The notes beneath the pieces were generated by a model that had not been told where the DNA came from, did not search any database, and saw nothing but the letters and a program-made list of their open reading frames with translations. From Actinomycetota bacterium (lineage in GTDB: Bacteria > Actinomycetota > Thermoleophilia > Gaiellales > Gaiellaceae), in NCBI GenBank assembly GCA_003161615.1, contig PMOB01000019.1, positions 52,728 to 116,727 of the forward strand: 64,000 nt of DNA. Reading direction: 5' to 3'. Shown in pieces: positions 8,484-49,319 of the stretch (positions are counted from its first letter, which is position 1; each line of letters begins with the position of its first letter). A program made the translations under genes and the position numbers.

Positions 8484-10039
8484 GCGAGCACTCCGAGATT
8501 GTGGATGGCGGAGTCGACGGCGCTCGCCGCGGTCTGGCCGAGCCCGCAGATCGAGGCGTCGCGCATCACTTGCGACAGGTCGGCGAGGACGGCGAGCTCG
8601 TCTCCCTGCGTCCGGCCGGAGGCGAGCCGGTGGAGCGCTTCCTCCTGGCGGACGGTGCCGATGCGGCAGGGGACGCACTGGCCGCACGACTCGTCGCGGA
8701 AGAACTCGGCGATCCGGAGGACGGCCTCGACGAGATCGGCCTGCTCGCCGAAGACCATCACGACGCCCGAGCCGAGGGTCACGCCGGCTTCGCGGGCGCC
8801 ATCGAACGAGAGCGGCAGGTCGAGCTGGTCCGGCCGCAGGAACGAGCCGGCGGCGCCGCCGAGCAGGACGGCCTTCGGCGGCTCGGCTCCCGCCAGGTCG
8901 AGCAGCTCGCCGAGCGGTGTGCCGAGCTCGAGCTCGTAGAGGCCCGGCCGAGCGACGTGGCCGGAGACGCAGAAGAGCCGCGTCTCGCGCGTGTCTCCGA
9001 GGAGTATCGGAGGCACGTTGACGAGCGTCTCGACGTTGTTGACGACGGTCGGCTTCCCGTAGAGGCCGACCTCGACCGGGAAAGGCGGCTTGTTGCGCGG
9101 CTCGCCGCGGTAGCCCTCGATCGACTGGAAGAGCGCCGTCTCCTCGCCGCACACGTAGGCGCCCGCGCCGATCCGCAGCTCGATGTCGAGACCGCTCGCC
9201 TCGATCGCCTCCCGCATCCGCTCCTGCGCGAGCGGATACTCGGCGCGGATGTAGAGGTAACCCTTCTCGCAGCCGGTCGCGAACATCGCGATCGCCATCC
9301 CCTCGACGAGCGCCTGCGGATCCTGCTCCATGATCACGCGGTCTTTGAAGGTCCCCGGCTCCGACTCGTCGGCGTTGCAGACGAGGTAGTGCGGGAGGGC
9401 GGGCTGGCGCGCGACGGCTTCCCACTTCGCGCCGGTCGGGAAGGCGGCGCCGCCGCGGCCGAGGAGCTTCGAGTCGGCGATCGCGTGGATCACGGCGTCC
9501 TGTCCCATCTCCTTCGCGCGCGCGAGCGCGGCGAATTCGCCGTAGGGCTCGCCGCTGACGATCCGCTTCAGCAGCCGGTCGCCGTGGACGGGCAGGCGCT
9601 GCTCGGGCAGCTGGATCTCGCGCGGCTCCTCGCCCGCGATCGTGCGCAGCGAGGCGGGCGCGAGCTCGCAGAGGCCGAGGCACGGTGACGGGACGGCGCC
9701 CTCGGGAACCTTCGCGCCGGCGAGGCGGCAGGCGAGGTCGGTGCAGACGTGGAGAACTTCCGGCGGGCGCTCTTCAAGCGCGAGCATCGCGTAGAAGGTC
9801 GCGACGCCGTACGCGTCGGCGGGCGGCACGTCGAGGCGGCGCGACGCGTAGCCGAGCGCGCCCGGCGTCACCCAGCCGGCGCGCTGCTGCGCGGCGCGGA
9901 GCGCGGGCAGAAGGAGATGCCGCCGCGTCCGGTCACGCCTCGCAACCCGGTTTCCGTCATCCGGCTCGACGCCGACGACGGCGTCGATTGCCGCGCGCTC
10001 GGCGTCGGTCGGCTCCGCTTCGAGCAGCTTCAGGTCCAC
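8480..10039 (-). CDS. fdhB: NAD-linked formate dehydrogenase flavin subunit (NuoE-NuoF fusion)
   Basis: The diaphorase subunit passing electrons from formate to NAD. Residues ~1-160 are NuoE-like with 2Fe-2S ligands C-x4-C (CTDLAC) and C-x3-C (CLGLC). The rest is NuoF-like, with the FMN loop GRGGAAFPTGAKW, the NAD-binding stretch GAYVCGEETALFQSIEG and the 4Fe-4S site ESCGQCVPCR with a later Cys. The 519-residue length fits FdsB-type fusions. The GTG at 10039 overlaps the stop of the catalytic gene (TAGTG), and its own stop overlaps the next gene, so the three genes form one coupled operon. Confidence 0.93.
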   Translation of the reverse strand: MDLKLLEAEPTDAERAAIDAVVGVEPDDGNRVARRDRTRRHLLLPALRAAQQRAGWVTPGALGYASRRLDVPPADAYGVATFYAMLALEERPPEVLHVCTDLACRLAGAKVPEGAVPSPCLGLCELAPASLRTIAGEEPREIQLPEQRLPVHGDRLLKRIVSGEPYGEFAALARAKEMGQDAVIHAIADSKLLGRGGAAFPTGAKWEAVARQPALPHYLVCNADESEPGTFKDRVIMEQDPQALVEGMAIAMFATGCEKGYLYIRAEYPLAQERMREAIEASGLDIELRIGAGAYVCGEETALFQSIEGYRGEPRNKPPFPVEVGLYGKPTVVNNVETLVNVPPILLGDTRETRLFCVSGHVARPGLYELELGTPLGELLDLAGAEPPKAVLLGGAAGSFLRPDQLDLPLSFDGAREAGVTLGSGVVMVFGEQADLVEAVLRIAEFFRDESCGQCVPCRIGTVRQEEALHRLASGRTQGDELAVLADLSQVMRDASICGLGQTAASAVDSAIHNLGVLA

Positions 10040-39610: not shown

Positions 39611-40785
39611 GCACCGCACCAACCGCCGGCGGAGTGCGGAGCTCCGTCTTCCTCGGCGCCGTCGTCGCCTCGATCGGCGGCCCGCTGGCGCTCATCGCCC
39701 TCTACCTGCCCGGCGCCGCGGGCGACGCAGGGCGCGCCTCCGGGCTGACGACGCTGCTGGCTATCGGTGTCTTCGGAGCGCCGCTCGCCGTCTGGCTGGG
39801 CTTCTCGGAGCAGATCGCCTCGGCGGGCGGGCTCGCGGCGTTCGTCGAAGCGGCGGCGGGAAGAACGGTCGCTCGCATCCAAGCGGCGATCTGGATCGTC
39901 AGCTACTTCCTCTATCTGCCGTACACGGTGACGTACATCGTCTACGACCTGCTCGCGCCCGTCTTTCCCGGCCTCGTGCCGTATCGCGGCTCGCTCGAGC
40001 TCGTCCTGCCGGTGGCGATCGCGGTCTTCGCCTTCCTGCCGCTCGCGACCAGCCTCGGCGTGCTCGGCGTCGTGGCGGTCGCGCAGCTCGTGCTCGTCGC
40101 CGTGCTCGGCGGGCTTCTCTTCGCGCACGGCGGAGCGTCGAGCTCGTCGTTCACGGCCCACGTCGGCGGCGCGCCGCTCGGCCGGGGCGTCGGAGCGATC
40201 GCGCTCCTCTTCGTCTGCGCCAGCCTGCCCCTCTTCTTCGGCGCCGAGGTTCGTGGCGGCACGAGGACGATCCGGCGCGGGCTCGCTTGGGGCTACGGCA
40301 TCGTCGCGGTCTTCCTGCTTCTCGCCGCTGTCCCGCTCGCGACCGGCGCGGGGCGGTTCGGCGGCACGGAACTTCCCGGCGTCTCGATTGCGCAGGCGTA
40401 TGCGGGACGTCCGCTCGCGGTCGCGGTCGCGCTCGGCGCGGCGGCAAGCGTCGCGGGGCTCATCGTGCTCGAACTGCTCGCGCTCGGGAGGCTCGTCCAC
40501 TGGCTCGCGGGAACAGCGATCCGCCCTACGCTCGCCGCGGTGTCGATCCCCTTCGTCGTCGCGGACGCGATCAGCCTTGTCGACCCGGAGCGGTTCTACA
40601 ACGACCTCTCACAGCCGTCGCTCGTTGCGCTCTTCGCGTCGCAGATTCTCGTCTTCGCCGTCTACCCGCTCTTCCGGCGGCGCGGGTGGCGGCCGCCCGC
40701 CGCAGCAGTGGGGGCAGCCGCCGTTGCTTCAGTCCTCGCGGGCTACGGGCTCTACACCGCGATCGTCAGCAGCGTGGGGTCTTAG
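39604..40785 (+). CDS. APC-type amino acid permease-like transporter
   Basis: A 393-residue membrane protein with about 11 hydrophobic segments. The N-terminal SSVFLGAVVASIGGPLALIA matches the unwound first helix (Gly-rich) of the APC superfamily, and a SYFLYLPYTVTYIVYDLL segment follows. It is somewhat shorter than typical members (about 450). The substrate is unknown. The GTG at 39604 or 39607 is used; it ends in a 4-bp stop overlap with the convergent cupredoxin gene. Confidence 0.75.
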   Translation: MVSTAPTAGGVRSSVFLGAVVASIGGPLALIALYLPGAAGDAGRASGLTTLLAIGVFGAPLAVWLGFSEQIASAGGLAAFVEAAAGRTVARIQAAIWIVSYFLYLPYTVTYIVYDLLAPVFPGLVPYRGSLELVLPVAIAVFAFLPLATSLGVLGVVAVAQLVLVAVLGGLLFAHGGASSSSFTAHVGGAPLGRGVGAIALLFVCASLPLFFGAEVRGGTRTIRRGLAWGYGIVAVFLLLAAVPLATGAGRFGGTELPGVSIAQAYAGRPLAVAVALGAAASVAGLIVLELLALGRLVHWLAGTAIRPTLAAVSIPFVVADAISLVDPERFYNDLSQPSLVALFASQILVFAVYPLFRRRGWRPPAAAVGAAAVASVLAGYGLYTAIVSSVGS

Positions 40786-41240
40786 CCCCAGTTGCTGCCA
40801 CCGCTCGTGGTCGTACCGCCGGACGTGCTCGTGCCACCTGTCCCGGATGTGCCACTGCCGCCGGCCTTGATCGACGTCTTCATCCCGAGTGCGAGATGGA
40901 GCGGGCAGACGAGGCTGTACGTGCCCTTCTTAAGGGTGACGGTGAGCGACTTCGTCTCGCCGGGGTTGATCAGACCCGGAATCCGCTTCGAGAGGCCGGG
41001 GCCACTGATCTTGAACTCGTGGGCCGTGTCGCTCGTGTTCTTGACGACGAAGGTGACCTTCCCCTTCGCAAACGAGTGCTTCTTGAGGACGATCCGGTAG
41101 TTCTTCTCGGTCACCGGAATCTTGGTCGTCGCTGTCGCGGTATGGGCGACCATTGCCGCCAGCGCGCCGCCCGCGAGTGCGGTGGCCGCCAGCACTCCGA
41201 CGACGAGAACGGTGCCGATCCTGCGATGTCTGCTTTTCAT
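40782..41240 (-). CDS. Secreted type 1 copper protein (cupredoxin)
   Basis: A 152-residue exported electron-transfer or copper-binding protein. A signal peptide (about residues 1-30) precedes a single cupredoxin domain with ligand His in TAHEFKI and the C-terminal ligand loop C-P-L-H-x4-M (CPLHLALGM), giving the His-Cys-His-Met set of a blue copper site. The tail is a low-complexity Gly/Ser/Thr segment. The ATG at 41240 follows GGAGGAACGA. It may supply electrons to the redox region to its right, but this is inference. Confidence 0.9.
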   Translation of the reverse strand: MKSRHRRIGTVLVVGVLAATALAGGALAAMVAHTATATTKIPVTEKNYRIVLKKHSFAKGKVTFVVKNTSDTAHEFKISGPGLSKRIPGLINPGETKSLTVTLKKGTYSLVCPLHLALGMKTSIKAGGSGTSGTGGTSTSGGTTTSGGSNWG

Positions 41241-41928: not shown

Positions 41929-42936
41929 CTAGCCCGTCTCCCAGCGAACGGCGACCTCTCTCTCGAGACCCGGCAGCGGCAGCGACGCCGCTTCCGTCTC
42001 GATCGCCTCCCGCTCGGCACGCGTCAGCCGGCGCCACGGCTCGATCGAAAGGTCGGCGTGCGCGCGGCGCCACGTCCCGGCAATCTCGCCGGCGACGAGG
42101 ACGGCGCCCGGCCAGACGCGCGGCGTCCAGAGCGCCGCACGCTGCTTCGCGTCCGGGACGAGGAGCTCGCGGTCTCGGCCCTGCAGGAGCCAGTAGGCAT
42201 CGCCGCTCGGCAGCAGTCGCGCCGCCGCAACCGGCCCGGCCGGCTCGCGGATCAGCGCTTCGTCGCCGCTCAGGATCCACGCCTCGCCGATCGGCGTGCG
42301 CACCGGCGTGAGATCGATCCCGTCGAACGCCGTCCGGGCCTCCTTCGCGCCGATTCCCGCCCAGATCGCGAACGACGCGGACGTCGTCGGGCCGAAGACG
42401 TGGAGGTAGCGGCGCGCCAGCTCGTGGCGCGCCTCGAGCGGGTCGAGCTCGGGCTTCGGCACCGTCCAGACGAGCGGTGCCCGCGCGCCCTCCCAGCGGA
42501 TGAGAACCGTGCCGGTCGTCGTCGCGCGCCTCACTCCGCCGACGCCGAGCGCAGCCTGCGCCTCGTTGTCCGTGGCCTGGCGGCCGGCGAGAAAGGCGTG
42601 GAGGCGCGCGGCGAGATCCTCCGCCCACTCCCGCCCGCGCGCGTCGTCGGGGTGGCGGCCGAGCGTGAAGATCGCGTGATCGCTTGCGGGCACCACATAT
42701 GTGCTGAAGCGCGGCCCCCAGACCTGGACGAGCGACTTGTCCTCCCAGCTGGACGGGTGCGCGCCCTCCACGCGCGCGTGGATCGAGAGGAGAGCCGCCC
42801 GCGGCATGCTGTCCTGCAAGCCCGCCCATGCCGCGCGGCGGAGGGAGCGGGCACCGCGCGGCAGCCGTTCGTCGAGCGCCCCGACGCGGCGGCGGAAGGC
42901 GAGGATCCGGACGCGGGAGAGATCGAGCTCGGTCAG
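41929..42936 (-). CDS. AlkZ-like winged-helix DNA glycosylase family protein
   Basis: A protein of about 335 residues of the HTH_42/AlkZ family, whose characterised members unhook DNA crosslinks. Recognisable blocks are WAGLQDSMPRAALLSIHAR, WEDKSLVQVWGPRFSTYVVP, TTGTVLIRWEG and GAVLVAGEIAGTWRRA. Family members use a Q-x-Q motif that I cannot place with confidence here. The start is uncertain: no ATG or GTG precedes the conserved N-terminus, and a CTG at 42936 overlaps the upstream stop as CTGA. It is the last gene of the left redox operon or just reads from it. Confidence 0.78.
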   Translation of the reverse strand: MTELDLSRVRILAFRRRVGALDERLPRGARSLRRAAWAGLQDSMPRAALLSIHARVEGAHPSSWEDKSLVQVWGPRFSTYVVPASDHAIFTLGRHPDDARGREWAEDLAARLHAFLAGRQATDNEAQAALGVGGVRRATTTGTVLIRWEGARAPLVWTVPKPELDPLEARHELARRYLHVFGPTTSASFAIWAGIGAKEARTAFDGIDLTPVRTPIGEAWILSGDEALIREPAGPVAAARLLPSGDAYWLLQGRDRELLVPDAKQRAALWTPRVWPGAVLVAGEIAGTWRRAHADLSIEPWRRLTRAEREAIETEAASLPLPGLEREVAVRWETG

Positions 42937-43505
42937 GCCGGAGAAAGTACCGGTGCCGAAGTTGGCCGCGCCGGTACGCCGCGCGGTGCGAGCAGGCGGT
43001 AGAAGGTCAGCGTCAGCACGGGACCGGCGGCGAGCACCGCGGTGATCGCTCCGCCGAAGCCGCGCAGGTCGGTGCCGGTGAGGAGCGCGTGCCCTAGCGC
43101 GAGCCAGAAGGCGGCGAAGCTCGCGTAATGGAGACGGCGCCAGCCCTTCTGGCCGATCCAGCGCTTCGCCTTGAAGGAGGAGGCGAGGGCGAGGCTCAGC
43201 CACGCAGCGACCACGCCCAGCGCGACGCTGCCCGGCCGCCAGCTCGCGGCGCCCGGCACAAGAACGGACAGCACGTTGAAGTGGAGGAAGGGGTCAGCGA
43301 GAACCGCGCCGGCGTGGAGAACGAGCGCCGAGAGACCGGTCCAGGCGAGCGTCCGGTGCAGGCTGAGCAGCGACTTCGTCCGCTTCGGCGGCAGTAGGCG
43401 CGTGCTCATCGCGAGCCCGAGCCAGACCGAGAGCGTCAGCAGGCCGAAGGCCACAAGCCCCGCGGAGCGCGCGATCAGCCAAGCGATGGGGAGACCGGTC
43501 GTCAT
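42933..43505 (-). CDS. Ferric reductase-like heme membrane protein (left copy)
   Basis: A 190-residue integral membrane protein with six hydrophobic segments. It has paired His residues on two helices (LHRTLAW / VLHAGAV and RRLHYASF / LGHALL) that fit b-type heme ligation, as in MsrQ and the ferric reductase transmembrane family. Shared blocks LVPGA, KRWIGQKGWRRLH and GHALLTGTDL make it a paralogue of the protein encoded at 47766-48326. It is coupled to the ApbE gene (ATGA). Confidence 0.88.
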   Translation of the reverse strand: MTTGLPIAWLIARSAGLVAFGLLTLSVWLGLAMSTRLLPPKRTKSLLSLHRTLAWTGLSALVLHAGAVLADPFLHFNVLSVLVPGAASWRPGSVALGVVAAWLSLALASSFKAKRWIGQKGWRRLHYASFAAFWLALGHALLTGTDLRGFGGAITAVLAAGPVLTLTFYRLLAPRGVPARPTSAPVLSPA

Positions 43506-44455
43506 GCCAGCGAGACCACGAGGCGCGGAGTCTCCAGCGGCAAGGCGCCGAGCGGAGTCGGCGGCCCCGCGTGAGGGACGTACAGCGCGGCGAGGTGCGG
43601 CCTGGCGGCGATGTGTGCTTCCGCTTCGGCGAGGCTGCCGATCGCGAGCGTCGTCGCGTGCGCCTCGGCTTCCGCCGCGTCAGGAGCGACGACAGTGACG
43701 GTGAGCGGCCCGGCGAGGGCGGGCTCGCCGGTCTCCGGGTCGATGAGGTGGTGGAGCGAGCCTGCGGGGCCGAAGCGGCGCGCGTCGCGGCCGGACGTCG
43801 CCACGCCGCCTTCGGCGAGCGCGAGGACGGCAAGCGTCTCGCCGGGCCGGCGCGGGTCGCTGACGGCAACGTGCCAGGGGCCGCCCTCCGGGGTCTCGCC
43901 GCGCACGGCGATGTCCCCGCCGAGATCGACGAGACCGCCGGGCAAGCTCGGCGCCCGCGCGAGCATCGCGTCGAGCGCGCAGCGCGCGGCGTAGCCCTTA
44001 CCGATGCCGCCGAGGTCGACGGCGGTGCCGGGCTCGAGCCGCGCCCGTCCGCGGCGATGGTCGAGCTCGATCGTCGCGCCGGCGCACCAGCCGTCGGCGT
44101 GCTCCGCCGGGCGTTCCTCGAGCAGCTCGAACGACTTGTCGTAGCCGGCGGCCACGAGAGCGGGAAGAACAGTCGGATCGAAGCGGCCGCCGGTGTCCTC
44201 GCGGGCGCGGAGAGCAAGTCGCAGCGTCTCGAGCAGGCGCCGGCCGACAGGCTGCCAGGAACCGGCGCCTGCGTTGAGCCGCGTCAGGTCGCTGTCGGAG
44301 TCGAAGCGGGAGAGCTCACGCTCGCACGCGGCGACCTCCTCCTGTGCGGCCTCGAGGGCTACGCGAGCGCGGAGCTCGTCGTGGATTCCGGTCGTGGCCG
44401 CCGCCGTGCACGTCGTGCCGACGGCGCGCCACTTGATGCGGGAGAGAGTGCTCAT
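43502..44455 (-). CDS. apbE: FAD:protein FMN transferase (ApbE)
   Basis: A 317-residue enzyme that attaches FMN covalently to Thr or Ser of target redox proteins. Characteristic blocks are FDSDSDLTRLNAGAG, GRFDPTVLPAL, TAVDLGGIGKGYAA, GLVDLGGDIAVRG, DPETGEPA and DAAEAEAHATTLAIG. It has no signal peptide or lipobox, so it may act inside the cell. The ATG at 44455 overlaps the stop of the small upstream gene. No obvious FMN-acceptor domain is encoded in this window. Confidence 0.93.
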   Translation of the reverse strand: MSTLSRIKWRAVGTTCTAAATTGIHDELRARVALEAAQEEVAACERELSRFDSDSDLTRLNAGAGSWQPVGRRLLETLRLALRAREDTGGRFDPTVLPALVAAGYDKSFELLEERPAEHADGWCAGATIELDHRRGRARLEPGTAVDLGGIGKGYAARCALDAMLARAPSLPGGLVDLGGDIAVRGETPEGGPWHVAVSDPRRPGETLAVLALAEGGVATSGRDARRFGPAGSLHHLIDPETGEPALAGPLTVTVVAPDAAEAEAHATTLAIGSLAEAEAHIAARPHLAALYVPHAGPPTPLGALPLETPRLVVSLA

Positions 44456-44664
44456 CCCCGTGCCACCGCTGAGGTCGCCGTCGTCGCATGGGTCGACGAC
44501 TTCAGGACGACGAGATGCTGCTTTCCGTTTGCTCCCTTCACCACGACCTGCTGCGGCGCGAGCTGCGGCGAGGCGGTGGAGACGGGGTGCGACGCCCAGG
44601 CGAGCACCGCGACGATCGCGAGCATCGCCCAGACGGACATCACGACTATCCAGATGCGTTGCAT
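44452..44664 (-). CDS. Small membrane-anchored protein of the left redox operon
   Basis: A 70-residue protein with one N-terminal membrane helix (residues ~5-24) ending LAWASHP, followed by an extracytosolic stretch LAPQQVVVKGANGKQHLVVL and a Thr/Ser/Ala tail. The NGKQHLVVL segment is beta-like. Function unknown. It sits between a similar tiny protein and ApbE and overlaps the latter by 4 bp. Confidence 0.7.
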   Translation of the reverse strand: MQRIWIVVMSVWAMLAIVAVLAWASHPVSTASPQLAPQQVVVKGANGKQHLVVLKSSTHATTATSAVARG

Positions 44665-44666
44665 GA

Positions 44667-44843
44667 TCAGTCACCTCCGTCGTGCCAGGCATGCGCAGCC
44701 GGCTGCACCTGCTGGACGACCGCGGCAGGCGCGGCCATCGGCGCGGCGGGCCGATGCGCAAGGCCGAGGATCGCCGCGCCGCCCGTGAGGACGGTGGCGG
44801 CGAGCACCGCGGCCAGTGCGAGTAGATGCTTGTTCGTGTTCAT
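44667..44843 (-). CDS. Tiny membrane protein with His/Asp/Gly tail (left operon leader)
   Basis: A 58-residue protein: one membrane helix or signal (KHLLALAAVLAATVLTGGAAIL), then a Pro/Ala-rich linker and the C-terminal tail HAWHDGGD. The tail resembles GHPHDGGADD and KHHGDDGSDGG of two proteins in the opposite operon. Metal or heme binding is inference. The ATG at 44843 is the operon's first start, with the GTAAAGGTTC motif 58 bp upstream. Confidence 0.65.
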   Translation of the reverse strand: MNTNKHLLALAAVLAATVLTGGAAILGLAHRPAAPMAAPAAVVQQVQPAAHAWHDGGD

Positions 44844-44900
44844 GGCCGCTGTTCTACGCGTGCGTCCGCAAAGGGCGGGCGAGGCGGCGGGCAAGCTTCG

Positions 44901-44910
44901 GTAAAGGTTC
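44901..44910. promoter_or_regulatory. GTAAAGGTTC box upstream of the left redox operon
   Basis: The 10-bp sequence GTAAAGGTTC lies 58 bp upstream of the first gene of the left operon and at the 3' end of the histidine kinase gene. The same ten bases occur, inverted, at 46971-46980 upstream of the regulator and right operon. It is a candidate site for the adjacent response regulator. Confidence 0.55.
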
Positions 44911-46270
44911 AGGCAGGACGAAGCCGGACGACAGCGTCGACCCCGCCGCCGGGCGCGTCCCGCAGCTCGACTTCTCCGTCGTCGGCCACGACAAGCCGCC
45001 GGACGATCGCCAGGCCGAGTCCGGAACCTCCCTCGCCGGAGCCGGCGCGCCAGAAGCGGTCGAAGGCGCGGGCCCGCTGCTCGGGCGTCAGGCCAGGGCC
45101 TTGGTCGGTCACGTGGAGCTCGACCCAGGGCGGCTCCGCACGGGCGGCCAGCGTCACCGTGGCGGTGGGAGCGGATGCCTCGAGCGCATTGGCGATGAGG
45201 TTGTCGAGCACCTGCGTGAGCCGGCCCGGCGCGGTGCGCACCGGCAGCGGGCCGTCGAGATCTGCAACGAGCGCGATCCCCTGCTCGCTCGCGACGGGCA
45301 GCCAGGCGTCGAGCCGCTCCCGTGCAAGCGCGGCGGCGTCGACGCGCTCGCTCGTCTCGGCACCGGAGTCCGCCCGAGCGAGGGCGAGGAGACCGTCGAC
45401 GAGCTCGGAGAGCCGGTGGCTCTCCCGCAACGCGGCGTCGCGGTCAGCGCTTGACGGGAGGCTCTCGAGCCGAAGCCGCAGGGCGGTAAGCGGCGTCCGC
45501 AGCTCGTGCGATGCGTCGGCGACGAACTCCTCCTGCGAGCGCAGCAGCCGCTCGAGCTTGGCGACCGTCTCGTTGAAGACAGCCGCCAGCGAGCGCACCT
45601 CGGGCGGACCGCCCGCGGCCGGAGCGCGCGTCTCGAGTCGTCCCTCCCCCACCGCCGCAGCTGCCTCCTCGAGCCGGTGCAGCGGACGCGTCACGAAGCG
45701 CGCGAGGCCGAAGCCGACGAGCGCCGCGCCCGCAAGGACGAGCACGCCGATCAACCCGAGGATCATCCAATACCGCTGAATACGCGAGTCGACGGCCGAG
45801 AGCGGATACGTGATCCGGACGGCGCCGTGCACCTGACCGCCGGAGGCGATCGGCACCGCGACGTAGAGGAGCCTCTCGTGAAGGGTCTGCGAGGTGCGGA
45901 CGCCGCGCGGGTAGCGGCCGGCGAGCGCCGCAGCGATCTCGGGCCGCGAGGCGAAGCTCTCGGCACCGCGGACGCGGCCGCTCGTGTCGATGAGCGCGTA
46001 GCCGCGGCGGTCGACGATCACGACTCGGCCTCCCGTGCGCGCCGTGTACGACGAGGCGGTGGCCGCGACCGGAGCAAGCTGCCGGCGGGTCGGCCGTTCG
46101 ACTTGCACCGCGTCCTCGGCGTCGGCGGCGAGCGCCATCGCGTCGTGGGAGACGTTCGCGGTCAGATCGCGCCGCTCGGTCCGCTGGTTCTGGACGCCGA
46201 GCGGAACCTCGAGGCTGAGCAGGACGAACAGCGTCACCCCGAGGTAGCCGAGCAGGAGGCGGCGGGTCAC
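44909..46270 (-). CDS. Sensor histidine kinase
   Basis: A 453-residue membrane sensor kinase. An N-terminal helix (~3-25), an extracytosolic sensor of about 130 residues and a second helix (~165-190) lead to a HAMP domain, then the H-box FVADASHELRTPLTALRLRL. N-box DNLIANALEAS, G1 DQGPGL and G2 GSGLGLAIVRRL follow. The GTG at 46270 overlaps the regulator stop (GTGA). The pair lies between two outward redox operons that it probably controls; the signal is unknown. Confidence 0.93.
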   Translation of the reverse strand: MTRRLLLGYLGVTLFVLLSLEVPLGVQNQRTERRDLTANVSHDAMALAADAEDAVQVERPTRRQLAPVAATASSYTARTGGRVVIVDRRGYALIDTSGRVRGAESFASRPEIAAALAGRYPRGVRTSQTLHERLLYVAVPIASGGQVHGAVRITYPLSAVDSRIQRYWMILGLIGVLVLAGAALVGFGLARFVTRPLHRLEEAAAAVGEGRLETRAPAAGGPPEVRSLAAVFNETVAKLERLLRSQEEFVADASHELRTPLTALRLRLESLPSSADRDAALRESHRLSELVDGLLALARADSGAETSERVDAAALARERLDAWLPVASEQGIALVADLDGPLPVRTAPGRLTQVLDNLIANALEASAPTATVTLAARAEPPWVELHVTDQGPGLTPEQRARAFDRFWRAGSGEGGSGLGLAIVRRLVVADDGEVELRDAPGGGVDAVVRLRPA

Positions 46271-46923
46271 GGTTCGCGGAGCCGGAAGCCGACGCCGCGC
46301 ACGGTCTCGATCCAGTGCGGGTCGCCGAGCTTCTTACGCAGGGCGGCGACGTGGACATCGATCGTCTTCGACGAGCCGTACCACGTCGTCTGCCAGACGT
46401 CGGCGAGCAGCCGCTGTCGGCTGATCGCGGCGCCGGGATCGCGGGCGAGCGCGGCGAGCAGCTCGAACTCCTTCGGCGTCAGCTCGAGGACGCGGCCGTC
46501 GAGGCAGGCCTCGCGGGCGCGCTCGTCGACCTCGAGGCTACCCACGCGCAACGGCCCTCCGGTCGCTCCCGCCGACGCAGCTCGGCGAGTCACGGCGCGG
46601 ATCCGCGCGATCAGCTCGCGCAAGCCGTACGGCTTGACGACGTAGTCGTCGGCACCGAGCTCGAGGCCGACGACGCGGTCCGCCTCCTCGCCGCGAGCAG
46701 TCACGATGATGATCGGGACGCGCGAGCGCTCGCGCAGGCGGCGGCAGACGTCGAGCCCGTCCAGATCGGGAAGGCGCAGATCGAGCAGGACAAGATCGGC
46801 CGCAGCCGCCTCGAGCGCGTCCGCGCCGGTTGCGACGCGGGAGACGTCGAAGCCTTCGCGACGCAAGCCGTTCACGAGCGGCTCGGCGATCGCGTCTTCG
46901 TCCTCGACCACAAGGATGTGCAC
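46267..46923 (-). CDS. OmpR-family response regulator
   Basis: A 218-residue two-component regulator. The receiver domain has acidic pocket VEDED, phospho-acceptor Asp at about residue 48 (LLDLRLPD), TARGE Thr and VKPYG Lys. The C-terminal winged helix contains ELTPKEFELLAALARDPG and SKTIDVHVAALRKKLGD. The GTG at 46923 matches the family start (HILVVEDED); upstream in-frame codons would read into the shared promoter with the GTAAAGGTTC box. It is co-transcribed with the sensor kinase. Confidence 0.93.
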   Translation of the reverse strand: MHILVVEDEDAIAEPLVNGLRREGFDVSRVATGADALEAAAADLVLLDLRLPDLDGLDVCRRLRERSRVPIIIVTARGEEADRVVGLELGADDYVVKPYGLRELIARIRAVTRRAASAGATGGPLRVGSLEVDERAREACLDGRVLELTPKEFELLAALARDPGAAISRQRLLADVWQTTWYGSSKTIDVHVAALRKKLGDPHWIETVRGVGFRLREP

Positions 46924-46970
46924 GCCTGCAGTGTCGGGGCGCGGTACTTGGGTGGCATCGGGACTTAGCC

Positions 46971-46980
46971 GAACCTTTAC
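46971..46980. promoter_or_regulatory. GTAAAGGTTC box (inverted) upstream of the regulator and right redox operon
   Basis: GAACCTTTAC on the plus strand is the exact reverse complement of the box at 44901-44910. It lies 48 bp upstream of the response regulator start and 69 bp upstream of the right operon's first gene, so one site could serve both directions. Confidence 0.55.
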
Positions 46981-47048
46981 TGCGCCTTGGGCGAAGCCTC
47001 GCCGTGGGCTCGCCCGGCCCTGACTCGCGCCCACCTAGCGTCGGCGGC

Positions 47049-47417
47049 ATGAACAAATTCCATGTCACCGTCCTGGCGCTGCTGTTCGCGGGCTCCGCCG
47101 TGCTCGGGGCCGTTGCGGTCACGCGCACAACGCATCTCGGTTCGGCGGCCACACAAGCGAACAACTCGGCCGTCGCCGCGCGGGCGAAGCAATTGACCGT
47201 CTATGCGGCAAAGCTGCGGCAGGAGCTCAAGGCCCGGCCGCCCGCACTCCCCGCAGTTCCGAAGCCGGCACCGGTCTCCCCGCCGGTCGTCGCCGCAGCC
47301 GCATCCGCGGCGCCGCGGATCGTCTATCACCAGCCGCCCCCGATCGTCGTGACCGTCCACAAGCACCACGGGGACGACGGCTCGGACGGCGGAGGCGGGG
47401 GTGGCGGAGATGACTAG
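47049..47417 (+). CDS. Small exported protein with His/Asp/Gly tail (right operon leader)
   Basis: A 122-residue protein with an N-terminal membrane helix or signal (FHVTVLALLFAGSAVLGAVA), a helical segment (NNSAVAARAKQLTVYAAKLR) and a Pro/Ala/Val linker. A tail HKHHGDDGSDGGGGGGGDD ends the chain. The His-Asp-rich end suggests metal binding. The ATG is at 47049. Its stop overlaps the next gene by 8 bp. Confidence 0.75.
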   Translation: MNKFHVTVLALLFAGSAVLGAVAVTRTTHLGSAATQANNSAVAARAKQLTVYAAKLRQELKARPPALPAVPKPAPVSPPVVAAAASAAPRIVYHQPPPIVVTVHKHHGDDGSDGGGGGGGDD

Positions 47418-47769
47418 CCATCACGCCCGTCTCTACGGCCTCGCGCTCGCGCTCGTCGTCTTCTTCCTCGCCTGGGCCGTCGTAGCCGCGCATCCGTGGG
47501 CGACGGCGGCGAGCGACCCGCGCCTCAAGACCCTCGGCACCCGCGAGGCCGAGCTCCGCCACGAGGCGAAGCTCGTCCGCCAGGTCGTTGCGACCCGCTG
47601 GGCCCACTACCGCGTCCAACTCAAGCTGCGGCGGGTGGAGATCGCCAAGGTCGCGGCCTCGAACGCGGCAGCCGCCGCACAGCAGTCCGTCGTGGCAGCG
47701 GCGCCCGCCGCGGCCGCGCCCGTCCAGGTCGTCAACCTGCCGGCCCACGTGATCACGAGGACGTCGTGA
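47410..47769 (+). CDS. Small membrane-anchored coiled-coil protein
   Basis: A 119-residue protein with one N-terminal membrane helix ending AVVAAHPWATA, then a charged helix of about 50 residues (REAELRHEAKLVRQVVATRW) likely to form a coiled coil, an Ala-rich linker and a short beta-like end PVQVVNLPAHVITRTS. Function unknown. It is preceded by GGCGGAG and is coupled to the ferric reductase-like gene (GTGA). Confidence 0.75.
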   Translation: MTSHHARLYGLALALVVFFLAWAVVAAHPWATAASDPRLKTLGTREAELRHEAKLVRQVVATRWAHYRVQLKLRRVEIAKVAASNAAAAAQQSVVAAAPAAAAPVQVVNLPAHVITRTS

Positions 47770-48326
47770 AGAACGACCCGACCTTCTGGCTCCTCGCACG
47801 CGCTAGCGGGTTGACCGCATACGGGCTCCTCACCGCCTCCGTGCTCGCGGGGCTCGTGCTCAAGTCGCGGCCGTTCGGGCGGGCGCTCAAGCCCGGTTCG
47901 GTCACCGACATGCACCGCTTCCTCGCCTTGCTCGGTCTCGGGATGCTCGGGCTGCACGGCGTGACGCTGGTGCTCGATCGCACGGTGCATATGCCGCTCA
48001 GCGGCCTGTTCGTGCCGGGCGCGTCGCCTTACCGCACCGCCGCGGTTGCCGCCGGCGTGGTCGGAGCCGAACTGATGACGCTGATCTACCTCTCGTTTCT
48101 CCTGCGCCCTTGGATCGGCGGCCGCAACTGGCGCCGGCTCCACTGGGCGACGTATCTCGTCTTCCTCCTCGCCACCGTCCACGGCTTCGCCTCGGGCACC
48201 GACTCGACGCAGCCGTGGGCGCGCGACCTCTACCTCGGGGCGGTCGGTGCGGTCGCCTTCGCCACGGCGTGGCGGGCACTCGGCCGCCCCACCCGCCCAG
48301 CACCCGCAATCGAAAGGAGCACGTGA
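47766..48326 (+). CDS. Ferric reductase-like heme membrane protein (right copy)
   Basis: A 186-residue membrane protein with six hydrophobic segments and the same paired His pattern as the left copy (DMHRFLALLG / GLHGVTLVLD and RRLHWATY / TVHGFASGTD). It shares LFVPGA, PWIGGRNWRRLH and the HGFASGTD end with its paralogue at 42933-43505. It is expected to carry b hemes and pass electrons across the membrane. The GTG at 47766 overlaps the upstream stop, and a ferredoxin gene follows directly. Confidence 0.88.
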   Translation: MKNDPTFWLLARASGLTAYGLLTASVLAGLVLKSRPFGRALKPGSVTDMHRFLALLGLGMLGLHGVTLVLDRTVHMPLSGLFVPGASPYRTAAVAAGVVGAELMTLIYLSFLLRPWIGGRNWRRLHWATYLVFLLATVHGFASGTDSTQPWARDLYLGAVGAVAFATAWRALGRPTRPAPAIERST

Positions 48327-48523
48327 TGTACCGCATCTCGATCGACCGCTCGCTCTGCAACGGCTACGGCGTCTGCGAAGCCGTCGCCCCGGACGTCTTC
48401 GCGCTCGGGGACGACGGGCTCGCCGTCCTCCGCACCGGCGTCAGCGAGGACGACGCCGTCAAGGAAGCCTGCGATTCCTGCCCGATGGGGGCGATCTCCA
48501 TCGCCAGGGTCGAGGCGGCATGA
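48326..48523 (+). CDS. 3Fe-4S-type ferredoxin
   Basis: A 65-residue cytosolic ferredoxin. The cluster motif is C-x5-C (CNGYGVC) then CDSCP, so the middle Cys of a 4Fe-4S motif is Tyr; this matches the 3Fe-4S ferredoxins that serve actinobacterial P450s. No P450 gene is near, so here it more likely feeds or accepts electrons from the heme membrane protein encoded just upstream. The ATG at 48326 follows AAAGGAG. Confidence 0.92.
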   Translation: MYRISIDRSLCNGYGVCEAVAPDVFALGDDGLAVLRTGVSEDDAVKEACDSCPMGAISIARVEAA

Positions 48524-48723
48524 CCCGGACACTGCTCGTCGTGGCGATCGCGGCGGTGGCCGTCGCTGCCGCGATCGCCGCCAATCTCCTGCTTCTCGGC
48601 AGCGCGTCGGCGAGCAACGACCCCGTCGGGCAGCTCAGCCAGCGCGCACATCTGCCCGCGGCTCCGCACTGGACGGTCCGCCCAACCAGCGGCCACCCGC
48701 ACGACGGAGGAGCCGATGACTGA
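48520..48723 (+). CDS. Tiny exported protein with HPHDGGADD tail
   Basis: A 67-residue protein: N-terminal hydrophobic helix (LLVVAIAAVAVAAAIAANLL), then a short extracytosolic part with several His (QRAHLPAAPHWTV) and the tail SGHPHDGGADD. The tail closely resembles HDGGD at the end of the left operon's first protein. The ATG at 48520 overlaps the ferredoxin stop. Confidence 0.7.
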   Translation: MTRTLLVVAIAAVAVAAAIAANLLLLGSASASNDPVGQLSQRAHLPAAPHWTVRPTSGHPHDGGADD

Positions 48724-48785: not shown

Positions 48786-49319
48786 ATGCGCGCGCTCGCC
48801 CTGGTCGCCGCTCTGCTCTTTGGCCTCGCCGCCGGCGTGGTGCTCGAACACTCTGCCCCGCTGCCGTCGCCGTCCGCCGCTCCGCCGCTCACCCCGCCGC
48901 CCGTGGCGAAGGTCGTCGTCACGGCGCCGGCGCCCGCGGCGCACTTCTCCGGTCGCGTTCCCTTCCCAGCGAGCGCGGCGGTCGCACCCGCCGTCTCCAC
49001 GCCGGCCGTGGCTCCGGTTCGCTCGACCTCTCCTGTCGCCCATCCCGTGACCGTGACGTCGCCGCAACCGGCGTCTGCGCCGGCACCCGCTCCCACGACT
49101 GCTGCGACTACCACGACGGCGCCACCCCCACCGCCCGCGGCAGCGCCGAAGGCCAGCACGCAGAAACCGGCGAAGCCCACCCCGCGGGGCCTCGCGAAGC
49201 ACGACCACGCTCCGCCCGGCCAGAGCAAGAAGGATCATGGCCCGTCCGGGCACGGCCTCTCCGGCCACGGCCCGTCCGGGCATATCCCGCCGGGACAGGC
49301 CAAGAAGCACGGCCGCTGA
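48786..49319 (+). CDS. Secreted Pro/Ala-rich protein with His-rich repeats
   Basis: A 177-residue low-complexity exported protein. Signal peptide about residues 1-20 (ALALVAALLFGLAAGVVLEH); the middle is Pro/Ala/Thr-rich and likely extended. The C-terminus has Lys/His repeats with DHGPSGHGLSGHGPSGH. It may span the cell wall and bind metal; both are inference. It lies 62 bp after the previous small gene and 1 bp before the diguanylate cyclase. Confidence 0.7.
   Translation: MRALALVAALLFGLAAGVVLEHSAPLPSPSAAPPLTPPPVAKVVVTAPAPAAHFSGRVPFPASAAVAPAVSTPAVAPVRSTSPVAHPVTVTSPQPASAPAPAPTTAATTTTAPPPPPAAAPKASTQKPAKPTPRGLAKHDHAPPGQSKKDHGPSGHGLSGHGPSGHIPPGQAKKHGR

Follow-up and report, generated by a model that had tools for sequence, protein, structure and literature searches.

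We analysed a stretch of 64,000 nucleotides (hereafter, the window) from an actinobacterium of the family Gaiellaceae (GenBank assembly GCA_003161615.1, contig PMOB01000019.1, positions 52,728 to 116,727 of the forward strand). Two divergent operons at positions 42933-48723 encode two heme membrane proteins (HEME1 and HEME2), the flavin adenine dinucleotide (FAD):protein flavin mononucleotide (FMN) transferase ApbE, a ferredoxin, a two-component system and five small anchored proteins, s1 to s5. The core of this locus belongs to the MsrQ-like clusters, as the available text of Meheust et al. 2021 (PMC8238504) describes them, and its new part is the tiny tail proteins. Judging from their sequences, these very small, anchored proteins probably bear a flavin bound covalently to the tail, where known relatives use a folded flavin-binding domain. 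We consider it likely that the locus is a two-component-regulated actinobacterial variant of the MsrQ-like system in which ApbE flavinylates the tail of s4 and the HATTxTS element of s2, and electrons travel through the heme proteins to the cell surface.

ApbE genes are often preceded by small proteins with a T-type tail

We call T-type a tiny anchored protein with the C-terminus [ST]-x-[AGSTV]-S. Every open reading frame (ORF) ending at the start of a gene was checked for such a tail. The first set comprised 96 class-level loci with 1252 called genes, including 84 for ApbE and 97 for heme proteins; those with less than 200 bases of upstream sequence were dropped (5 ApbE, 2 heme and 79 others). 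A T tail stood upstream of 62/79 ApbE genes, compared with 11/95 heme genes and 14/992 other genes. In 40 unseen loci of the class, the tail preceded 23/38 ApbE genes versus 3/187 others, and it was present at 19/25 of the ApbE genes there that have a heme gene within four genes. Among small anchored operon neighbours, 47/129 of those beside ApbE or heme genes were T-ended versus 12/897 for other genes, and most of these 12 also adjoin ApbE or heme genes.

An origin of the tail in overlap with the next start codon was rejected. When only genes with a 1- or 4-nucleotide overlap were compared, a T tail was found before ApbE in 37/46 cases and before other genes in 1/213. The terminal Ser of the tails is encoded by four codons drawn from both Ser codon families, and the 129 small neighbours form 56 blastp clusters, many of which include T tails.

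Two tiny proteins of the window resemble ApbE substrates

The features of the window that bear directly on flavinylation are as follows.

44452..44664, minus strand: s2, tiny anchored protein of 70 residues directly 5' of ApbE, predicted ApbE substrate
44470..44490, minus strand: HATTATS motif of s2, predicted flavin attachment region (alignment A3)
47410..47769, plus strand: s4, small anchored T-type protein, predicted ApbE substrate, with an alternative start at 47401 (alignment A2)
47755..47766, plus strand: TRTS C-terminus of s4, predicted flavin attachment site (alignment A2)
43502..44455, minus strand: ApbE, FAD:protein FMN transferase, without signal peptide (PF02424)

ApbE takes FMN from FAD and attaches it to the final Ser/Thr of the motif D-x-x-[ST]-G-A-[ST]. 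According to the available text of PMC12052999, these seven residues suffice, a change of the Asp to Ala has little effect, and engineered tags perform best at a protein terminus. In the window, s4 ends in VITRTS and s2 holds HATTATS near its C-terminus. An earlier note, made from the DNA alone, mentioned neither stretch and missed the likeness of these two proteins to ApbE substrates.

Both stretches are conserved. The final Ser of s4 is kept in 8/9 aligned rows (A2), and the ninth, L044, carries VTGATPVTHSTSS further inward. HATT-x-TS is invariant in all five aligned s2 orthologues (A3) and is followed by a few residues. The s2 counterpart in genome G037 (L039), which lies upstream of the ApbE gene at 8944-9903, has HATTGSS plus a terminal VTRSS. 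On this basis s2 may be a T-type protein that has either lost its terminal residues or acquired additional ones after them, and the two motif-like stretches of the G037 protein could possibly make its tail doubly flavinylated.

We built a profile of 47 non-redundant T tails. All 47 have S/T at -4 and a final S, both required by the search pattern, while P at -8, a position outside that pattern, occurs in 34/47. The tails have a Ser/Thr three ahead of the final Ser, and a small residue precedes the latter. Exact SGAS C-termini are found in L080, L081, L087, L205 and L219, and [ST]GA[ST] without the Asp is present in some relatives. The stretch ahead of the tail consists to 84% of A, P, S, T, Q, G or V, so a flavin at this position would sit on a flexible tether.

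Some heme proteins appear as if the tail had been fused to its proposed partner. In genus g40, two heme proteins of L115 (337 and 252 residues) have an additional hydrophobic segment, a linker and a TGGS/TGAS end, and the 337-residue heme protein of L226 has the same parts with a TGGS end. The window genome itself has two other heme loci, one with a SATS protein before ApbE (contig C28) and one with a TATS protein directly before the heme gene (contig C8). The latter, the third heme locus of this genome (L042:7019-9019), lacks ApbE and has a SCO1/SenC-like protein adjacent.

A separate observation concerns L049:6265-12148, where one operon holds two repeats of a T-type gene (SGTS end), a Ser/Thr-rich protein and a protein of 108-114 residues. 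These repeats surround heme, reductase, ferredoxin and ApbE genes.

The window ApbE belongs to the FMN transferase family

The window ApbE matches PF02424 with 182 bits against a cut-off of 25.6 and aligns with solved ApbE structures (e.g. 1VRM, E=3.8e-26). The conserved H, GGD and GKG positions are present, and in tail-paired ApbEs the His, the second Gly-Asp and the Lys are kept in 100% of rows. By its family match and conserved residues, it qualifies as a member of the FMN transferase family. At the conserved acidic residue of the A-[DE] position, the window ApbE has Glu; tail-paired ApbEs have E, N or D, and those paired with FMN_bind (PF04205) mostly Asp.

We compared the distribution of ApbE with that of FMN_bind. 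No FMN_bind match was found among ten window proteins or in the rest of the genome, which is 95% complete, and in a Pfam search s1 to s5 reached no family cut-off, that of FMN_bind included. FMN_bind occurs in 34/299 genomes of the class. Each of these 34 also belongs to the 160 ApbE-bearing genomes, which leaves 126/160 ApbE genomes without it. At 15 short FMN_bind loci, the FMN_bind gene adjoins ApbE in most cases, the heme protein has a longer C-terminal part and no ApbE-adjacent gene has a T tail; the matching end of a heme-type protein in L151 is a chance match. In these operons the FMN_bind gene takes the position of the tail gene. In the ApbE tree, FMN_bind-adjacent ApbEs fall mainly into a single clade of 13 rows with support 100. 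Nearly all tail-paired ApbEs lie outside it and make up the remainder. The T label requires 27 changes on this tree and is therefore clustered rather than of single origin.

Observations that weigh against tail flavinylation

Several results count against the flavinylation of these tails. Neither s2 (HATTATS) nor s4 (VITRTS) matches D-x-x-[ST]-G-A-[ST]: the Asp is missing, and R or T stands at the G and A positions. Five residues, AVARG, trail the s2 element, so the description "at the very C-terminus" does not hold for s2. The location of the enzyme is also awkward. An N-terminal hydrophobic segment is absent from 83/84, 37/38 and 31/32 ApbEs in the three locus sets, while net charge places the tail outside in 37/57 helix-bearing tail proteins (14 inside, 6 tied). 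Flavin would then have to be added before export, or some tails would be cytosolic. In addition, the T pattern was fixed after the first locus set had been viewed, and only the 40-locus hold-out tests, on unseen class loci and outside the class, are independent of it.

The tail is also not universal. A strict upstream tail is absent at 17/79 and 15/38 ApbE genes of the first and the unseen class loci. These tail-less cases include two with a downstream tail (L216, L217), one with an SGGT end (L210), five that are s2-like, and a group of family f5 in which a longer upstream protein ends in SKQS or similar. Outside the class, 40 loci with 32 called ApbE genes gave a strict tail at 11/32 ApbEs versus 2/180 other genes, and one of the 11 (L253) is probably chance. 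Because the codon model had been trained on the class, gene calls may be poor in those of these loci that have lower GC. Several ApbE neighbours outside the class have near variants close to their end, such as TSGSR or SNGSR.

Two observations on variant ends are recorded here in their own right. In L241, L243, L244, L248, L254 and L261, all outside the class, we found the near-terminal variants TSGSR, SNGSR, TTSGSHP and STGGSAPPP, or CYTSPSGNVTCY ends. In the second ApbE group of f5 (L193, L194, L197, L198, L201, L204), no heme gene lies nearby and ApbE follows proteins of 176-232 residues with Asp/Ser-rich ends, e.g. DSTSKQS or DSGQS, perhaps another tail variant.

The locus combines two heme proteins, a ferredoxin and D-type proteins

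Every gene of the two operons, which point away from one another, is backed by a codon-model gene caller, and all parts lie where the earlier note had placed them (gene calls, Pfam). The left operon (minus strand) encodes the response regulator, the kinase, s1, s2, ApbE and HEME1; the right operon (plus strand) encodes s3, s4, HEME2, the ferredoxin and s5. The remaining features are as follows.

46267..46923, minus strand: OmpR-type response regulator (Response_reg and Trans_reg_C), with operon-adjacent orthologues in L035-L038
44909..46270, minus strand: HAMP histidine kinase (HAMP, HisKA, HATPase_c), with operon-adjacent orthologues in L035-L038
44667..44843, minus strand: s1, tiny anchored D-type protein of 58 residues ending in HAWHDGGD (gene call; orthologues in L036 and L037)
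42933..43505, minus strand: HEME1, ferric-reductase/MsrQ-like membrane protein with four invariant His (Pfam, alignment A1, AlphaFold2 model)
47049..47417, plus strand: s3, small anchored D-type protein with a His/Asp/Gly tail and a DD end, terminating in HKHHGDDGSDGGGGGGGDD (alignment A4)
47766..48326, plus strand: HEME2, paralogue of HEME1 (Pfam; 37% identity to HEME1)
48326..48523, plus strand: single-cluster ferredoxin, C-x5-C ... C-P (Fer4_15, Fer4_13)
48520..48723, plus strand: s5, tiny anchored D-type protein ending in SGHPHDGGADD (alignment A5)

The MsrQ-like system is marked by a PF01794 (Ferric_reduct) protein in an ApbE gene cluster. The two heme proteins match PF01794 with E=1.6e-5 and 2.5e-4, both under the Pfam cut-off of 28 bits; ApbE is adjacent and the predicted fold agrees. 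A Pfam search found in these proteins only the membrane domain, with neither an NAD-binding domain nor a NuoF-like partner. His 50, 64, 126 and 139 of HEME1 are invariant among 16 aligned relatives (A1) and form two pairs with a spacing of some 13-14 residues within each, an arrangement that would fit two b haems. The AlphaFold2 model of HEME1 (mean confidence, pLDDT, 88.1) is nearest to structures of bacterial NADPH oxidase (NOX), STEAP and cytochrome b561, with moderate similarity. Foldseek returned no match under E 0.001 for this model (best E 0.09 at a template-modelling score of about 0.55, NOX/STEAP), and a second structure aligner gave Z up to 13.7, which by its own note is borderline for helical bundles. 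HEME2 as MsrQ proper was rejected at 13.5 bits against the NCBIfam MsrQ equivalog cut-off of 130; HEME1 had no match to that equivalog.

The ferredoxin matches Fer4_15 (E=7e-12) and Fer4_13 (E=1e-10), both above cut-off. With this fold and the C-x5-C and C-P pattern, it is a single-cluster ferredoxin of the [3Fe-4S] P450 type as judged by sequence, with an additional Cys two residues ahead of the last one.

The proteins s1, s3 and s5 are D-type, a class in which 41/43 proteins have an acidic C-terminus, usually DD. His occurs in the last 25 residues of 33/43, at a mean of 2.05 versus a background expectation of 0.53. The three similar His/Asp tails pointed out in the earlier note belong to this class. 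Their acidic end is kept in s1, s3 and s5 orthologues, but the histidines vary: s1 orthologues end in PAWSEGGDN, PRGEGD or RWDD, and s5 orthologues have a terminal DD in 6/6 rows (A5). His/Asp tails as the conserved core were rejected as stated, because s1 orthologues lose His and keep the acidic end. Metal binding by D-type proteins is possible.

Two further genes lie close to the operons. A cupredoxin-like exported protein (40782-41240, minus strand; Cupredoxin_1 E=2e-9, Copper-bind E=5e-5) is encoded on the same strand as HEME1, two genes beyond it, and is a possible electron partner. An ORF that the gene caller rejected (48786-49319, plus strand) lies between s5 and a GGDEF protein; it is Pro/Ala-rich, with SGHG-type repeats and a His/Lys-rich end.

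The gene set recurs in other genomes

HEME1-like genes are present in 26/61 near relatives searched. We examined whole neighbourhoods at 15 first loci and then at 80 further loci of the class. The gene set, whose presence in other genomes the earlier note had proposed as a check, does co-occur elsewhere. It recurs in three same-genus genomes (L035-L037, with the layout nearly whole), in a different genus from the same family (L038) and partly in another family of the order (L039), as well as at class loci. By control counts, this recurrence is beyond chance.

The relatives also show variations on the theme. The G036 copy has all genes on the same strand; there a ferredoxin reductase gene separates those for ferredoxin and s5, and HEME1 is followed by a di-haem cytochrome c. 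The right operon of L037 has its own additional ApbE. L038 has a di-haem cytochrome c (L038:7517-8242) and a similar 58-residue protein at the position matching s1. Ferredoxin reductase (Pyr_redox_2 and Reductase_C) and a NuoF-like protein also occur in relatives' loci. Across the class, the heme alignment matches at E<=1e-10 in 134/299 genomes, and the recurrent gene order is D-type, T-type, ApbE, HEME, ferredoxin, ferredoxin reductase, D-type, with variants. A narrower heme alignment (A6) gave 15 loci in the named genome collection.

At some of these loci (L073, L075, L078, L084, L098, L130) we also observed a conserved exported protein of about 224 residues (cluster c10, no confident Pfam family), which often precedes a T-type gene or adjoins kinase genes.

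Proposed electron path

Gene context supports each partner of the path that we propose. Electrons from NADH would pass to a ferredoxin reductase, encoded elsewhere in the window genome and next door in relatives, and from there to the single-cluster ferredoxin. The ferredoxin would reduce the di-haem b membrane protein HEME1 or HEME2, whose haems would pass electrons to FMN held covalently on s2 and s4 and onward to a cell-surface acceptor, for which iron, copper, cytochrome c and quinone are candidates. ApbE would attach this FMN to the Ser/Thr of the [ST]-x-[small]-S that ends s4, and to HATTxTS of s2. The flavin would ride on an Ala/Pro/Ser-rich, flexible tethered arm behind a single membrane helix, not in an FMN_bind domain. 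The acidic, His-enriched s1, s3 and s5 may bind a metal ion or serve as a docking site for the acceptor. Electron flow between cytosolic ferredoxin or flavin and the outside through a heme membrane protein had been suggested in the earlier note and remains the best reading, to which relatives add ferredoxin reductase, the NuoF-like protein or di-haem cytochrome c.

More broadly, we somewhat favour the view that natural terminal flavin tags are used by an entire branch of electron-transfer systems in Actinobacteria. Largely disordered, tethered tiny proteins would bear FMN on their last residue and swing it between the di-haem protein and surface acceptors, and FMN_bind would have been replaced or preceded by them. 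Should this be confirmed, the tail proteins would make up a novel type of redox protein that occurs widely within a single large bacterial phylum, and they offer a directly testable answer to what ApbE acts on in the class genomes without FMN_bind. It would also mean that a class of flavoproteins without a flavin-binding fold has been missed by domain libraries, that the laboratory-made minimal terminal tag has equivalents in nature, and that annotators could recognise many unlabelled electron-transfer operons by the last four residues of a protein.

Alternative explanations

The tail could instead be a signal for docking or sorting, addressed to ApbE, the heme protein or export, with ApbE flavinylating a substrate encoded elsewhere. 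This would account for the frequent replacement of the G and A of the known motif, and for an ApbE without signal peptide beside a tail that is apparently outside. We nevertheless think it unlikely: FMN_bind is absent from most ApbE genomes of the class sample (no search covered the other known substrates NqrB/RnfD, DUF2271 and DUF3570), some tails read exactly SGAS or TGAS, and FMN_bind genes occupy the same ApbE-adjacent place. It is very improbable that ApbE serves mainly as an FAD pyrophosphatase and FMN supplier, like Treponema Ftp, with the small proteins as structural subunits of the heme protein. Such activity is published (PMC4767422, available text), and the variable acidic residue of tail-paired ApbEs would be in keeping with it, but the terminal position of the tails and the identity of their conserved residues with those of the ApbE target motif would be left unexplained.

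A role as an assimilatory or detoxifying metal reductase, with Fe or Cu held by acidic/His tails and reduced directly by the heme protein, draws on the nearest folds of HEME1 (NOX/STEAP/b561) and on the His of D-type tails. We regard it as possible though doubtful, since we recognised no metal transporter among the genes of the listed operons (a profile search was not made); it is compatible with a flavin-bearing arm rather than opposed to it. Finally, translational coupling, sequence composition or common descent might have produced the tail enrichment as an artefact, given that many tail genes overlap ApbE by 1 or 4 nucleotides, that the tails are of low complexity and that the loci are related. 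We find this hardly credible, because the enrichment survives the overlap-matched control and repeats in unseen loci, and because of the codon usage and the spread over clusters given above.

Comparison with known systems

The earlier note knew of no described system with this composition. That statement does not stand, as ApbE together with a PF01794 membrane protein constitutes the "MsrQ-like system" of Actinobacteria in the available text of PMC8238504. We searched the literature on ApbE flavinylation, with most subscription journals outside coverage, and found no description of terminal tail proteins; the available text of PMC8238504, PMC11334425 and PMC12052999 likewise contains none of the pairing of tail and D-type proteins or of the ferredoxin branch.

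As described in the text available, the MsrQ-like clusters share ApbE and a six-helix haem membrane protein (PF01794) with the window; NAD(P)H is the likely electron source via NuoF-like partners in some, and extracytosolic electron delivery is proposed. They typically include a gene for an FMN-binding domain, often with a fused NAD-binding domain, whereas the window has neither and instead has tiny tail proteins, a ferredoxin, D-type partners and two heme paralogues. FMN_bind proteins resemble the tail proteins in standing beside ApbE and a ferric-reductase-like protein, in being anchored or exported and in having an S/T-rich target site. However, FMN_bind folds into a domain of about 77-120 residues that contains SGATYTS internally, and the tail proteins show no domain and have the motif at the end. 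An unstructured C-terminal extension as flavin attachment is known from FMN_red (Huang et al. 2024, PMC11334425, available text), where flavinylation was demonstrated by co-expression and S/T-to-A variants. There the extension is carried by a folded flavoprotein, while the tail proteins have a membrane anchor and no flavin-binding fold. The flavin-tag of PMC12052999 is, in the text available, likewise a short terminal peptide recognised by ApbE, but it is engineered and keeps the full seven-residue motif, unlike the window tails. Set beside these systems, the tail proteins may represent a new, predicted class of ApbE substrate.

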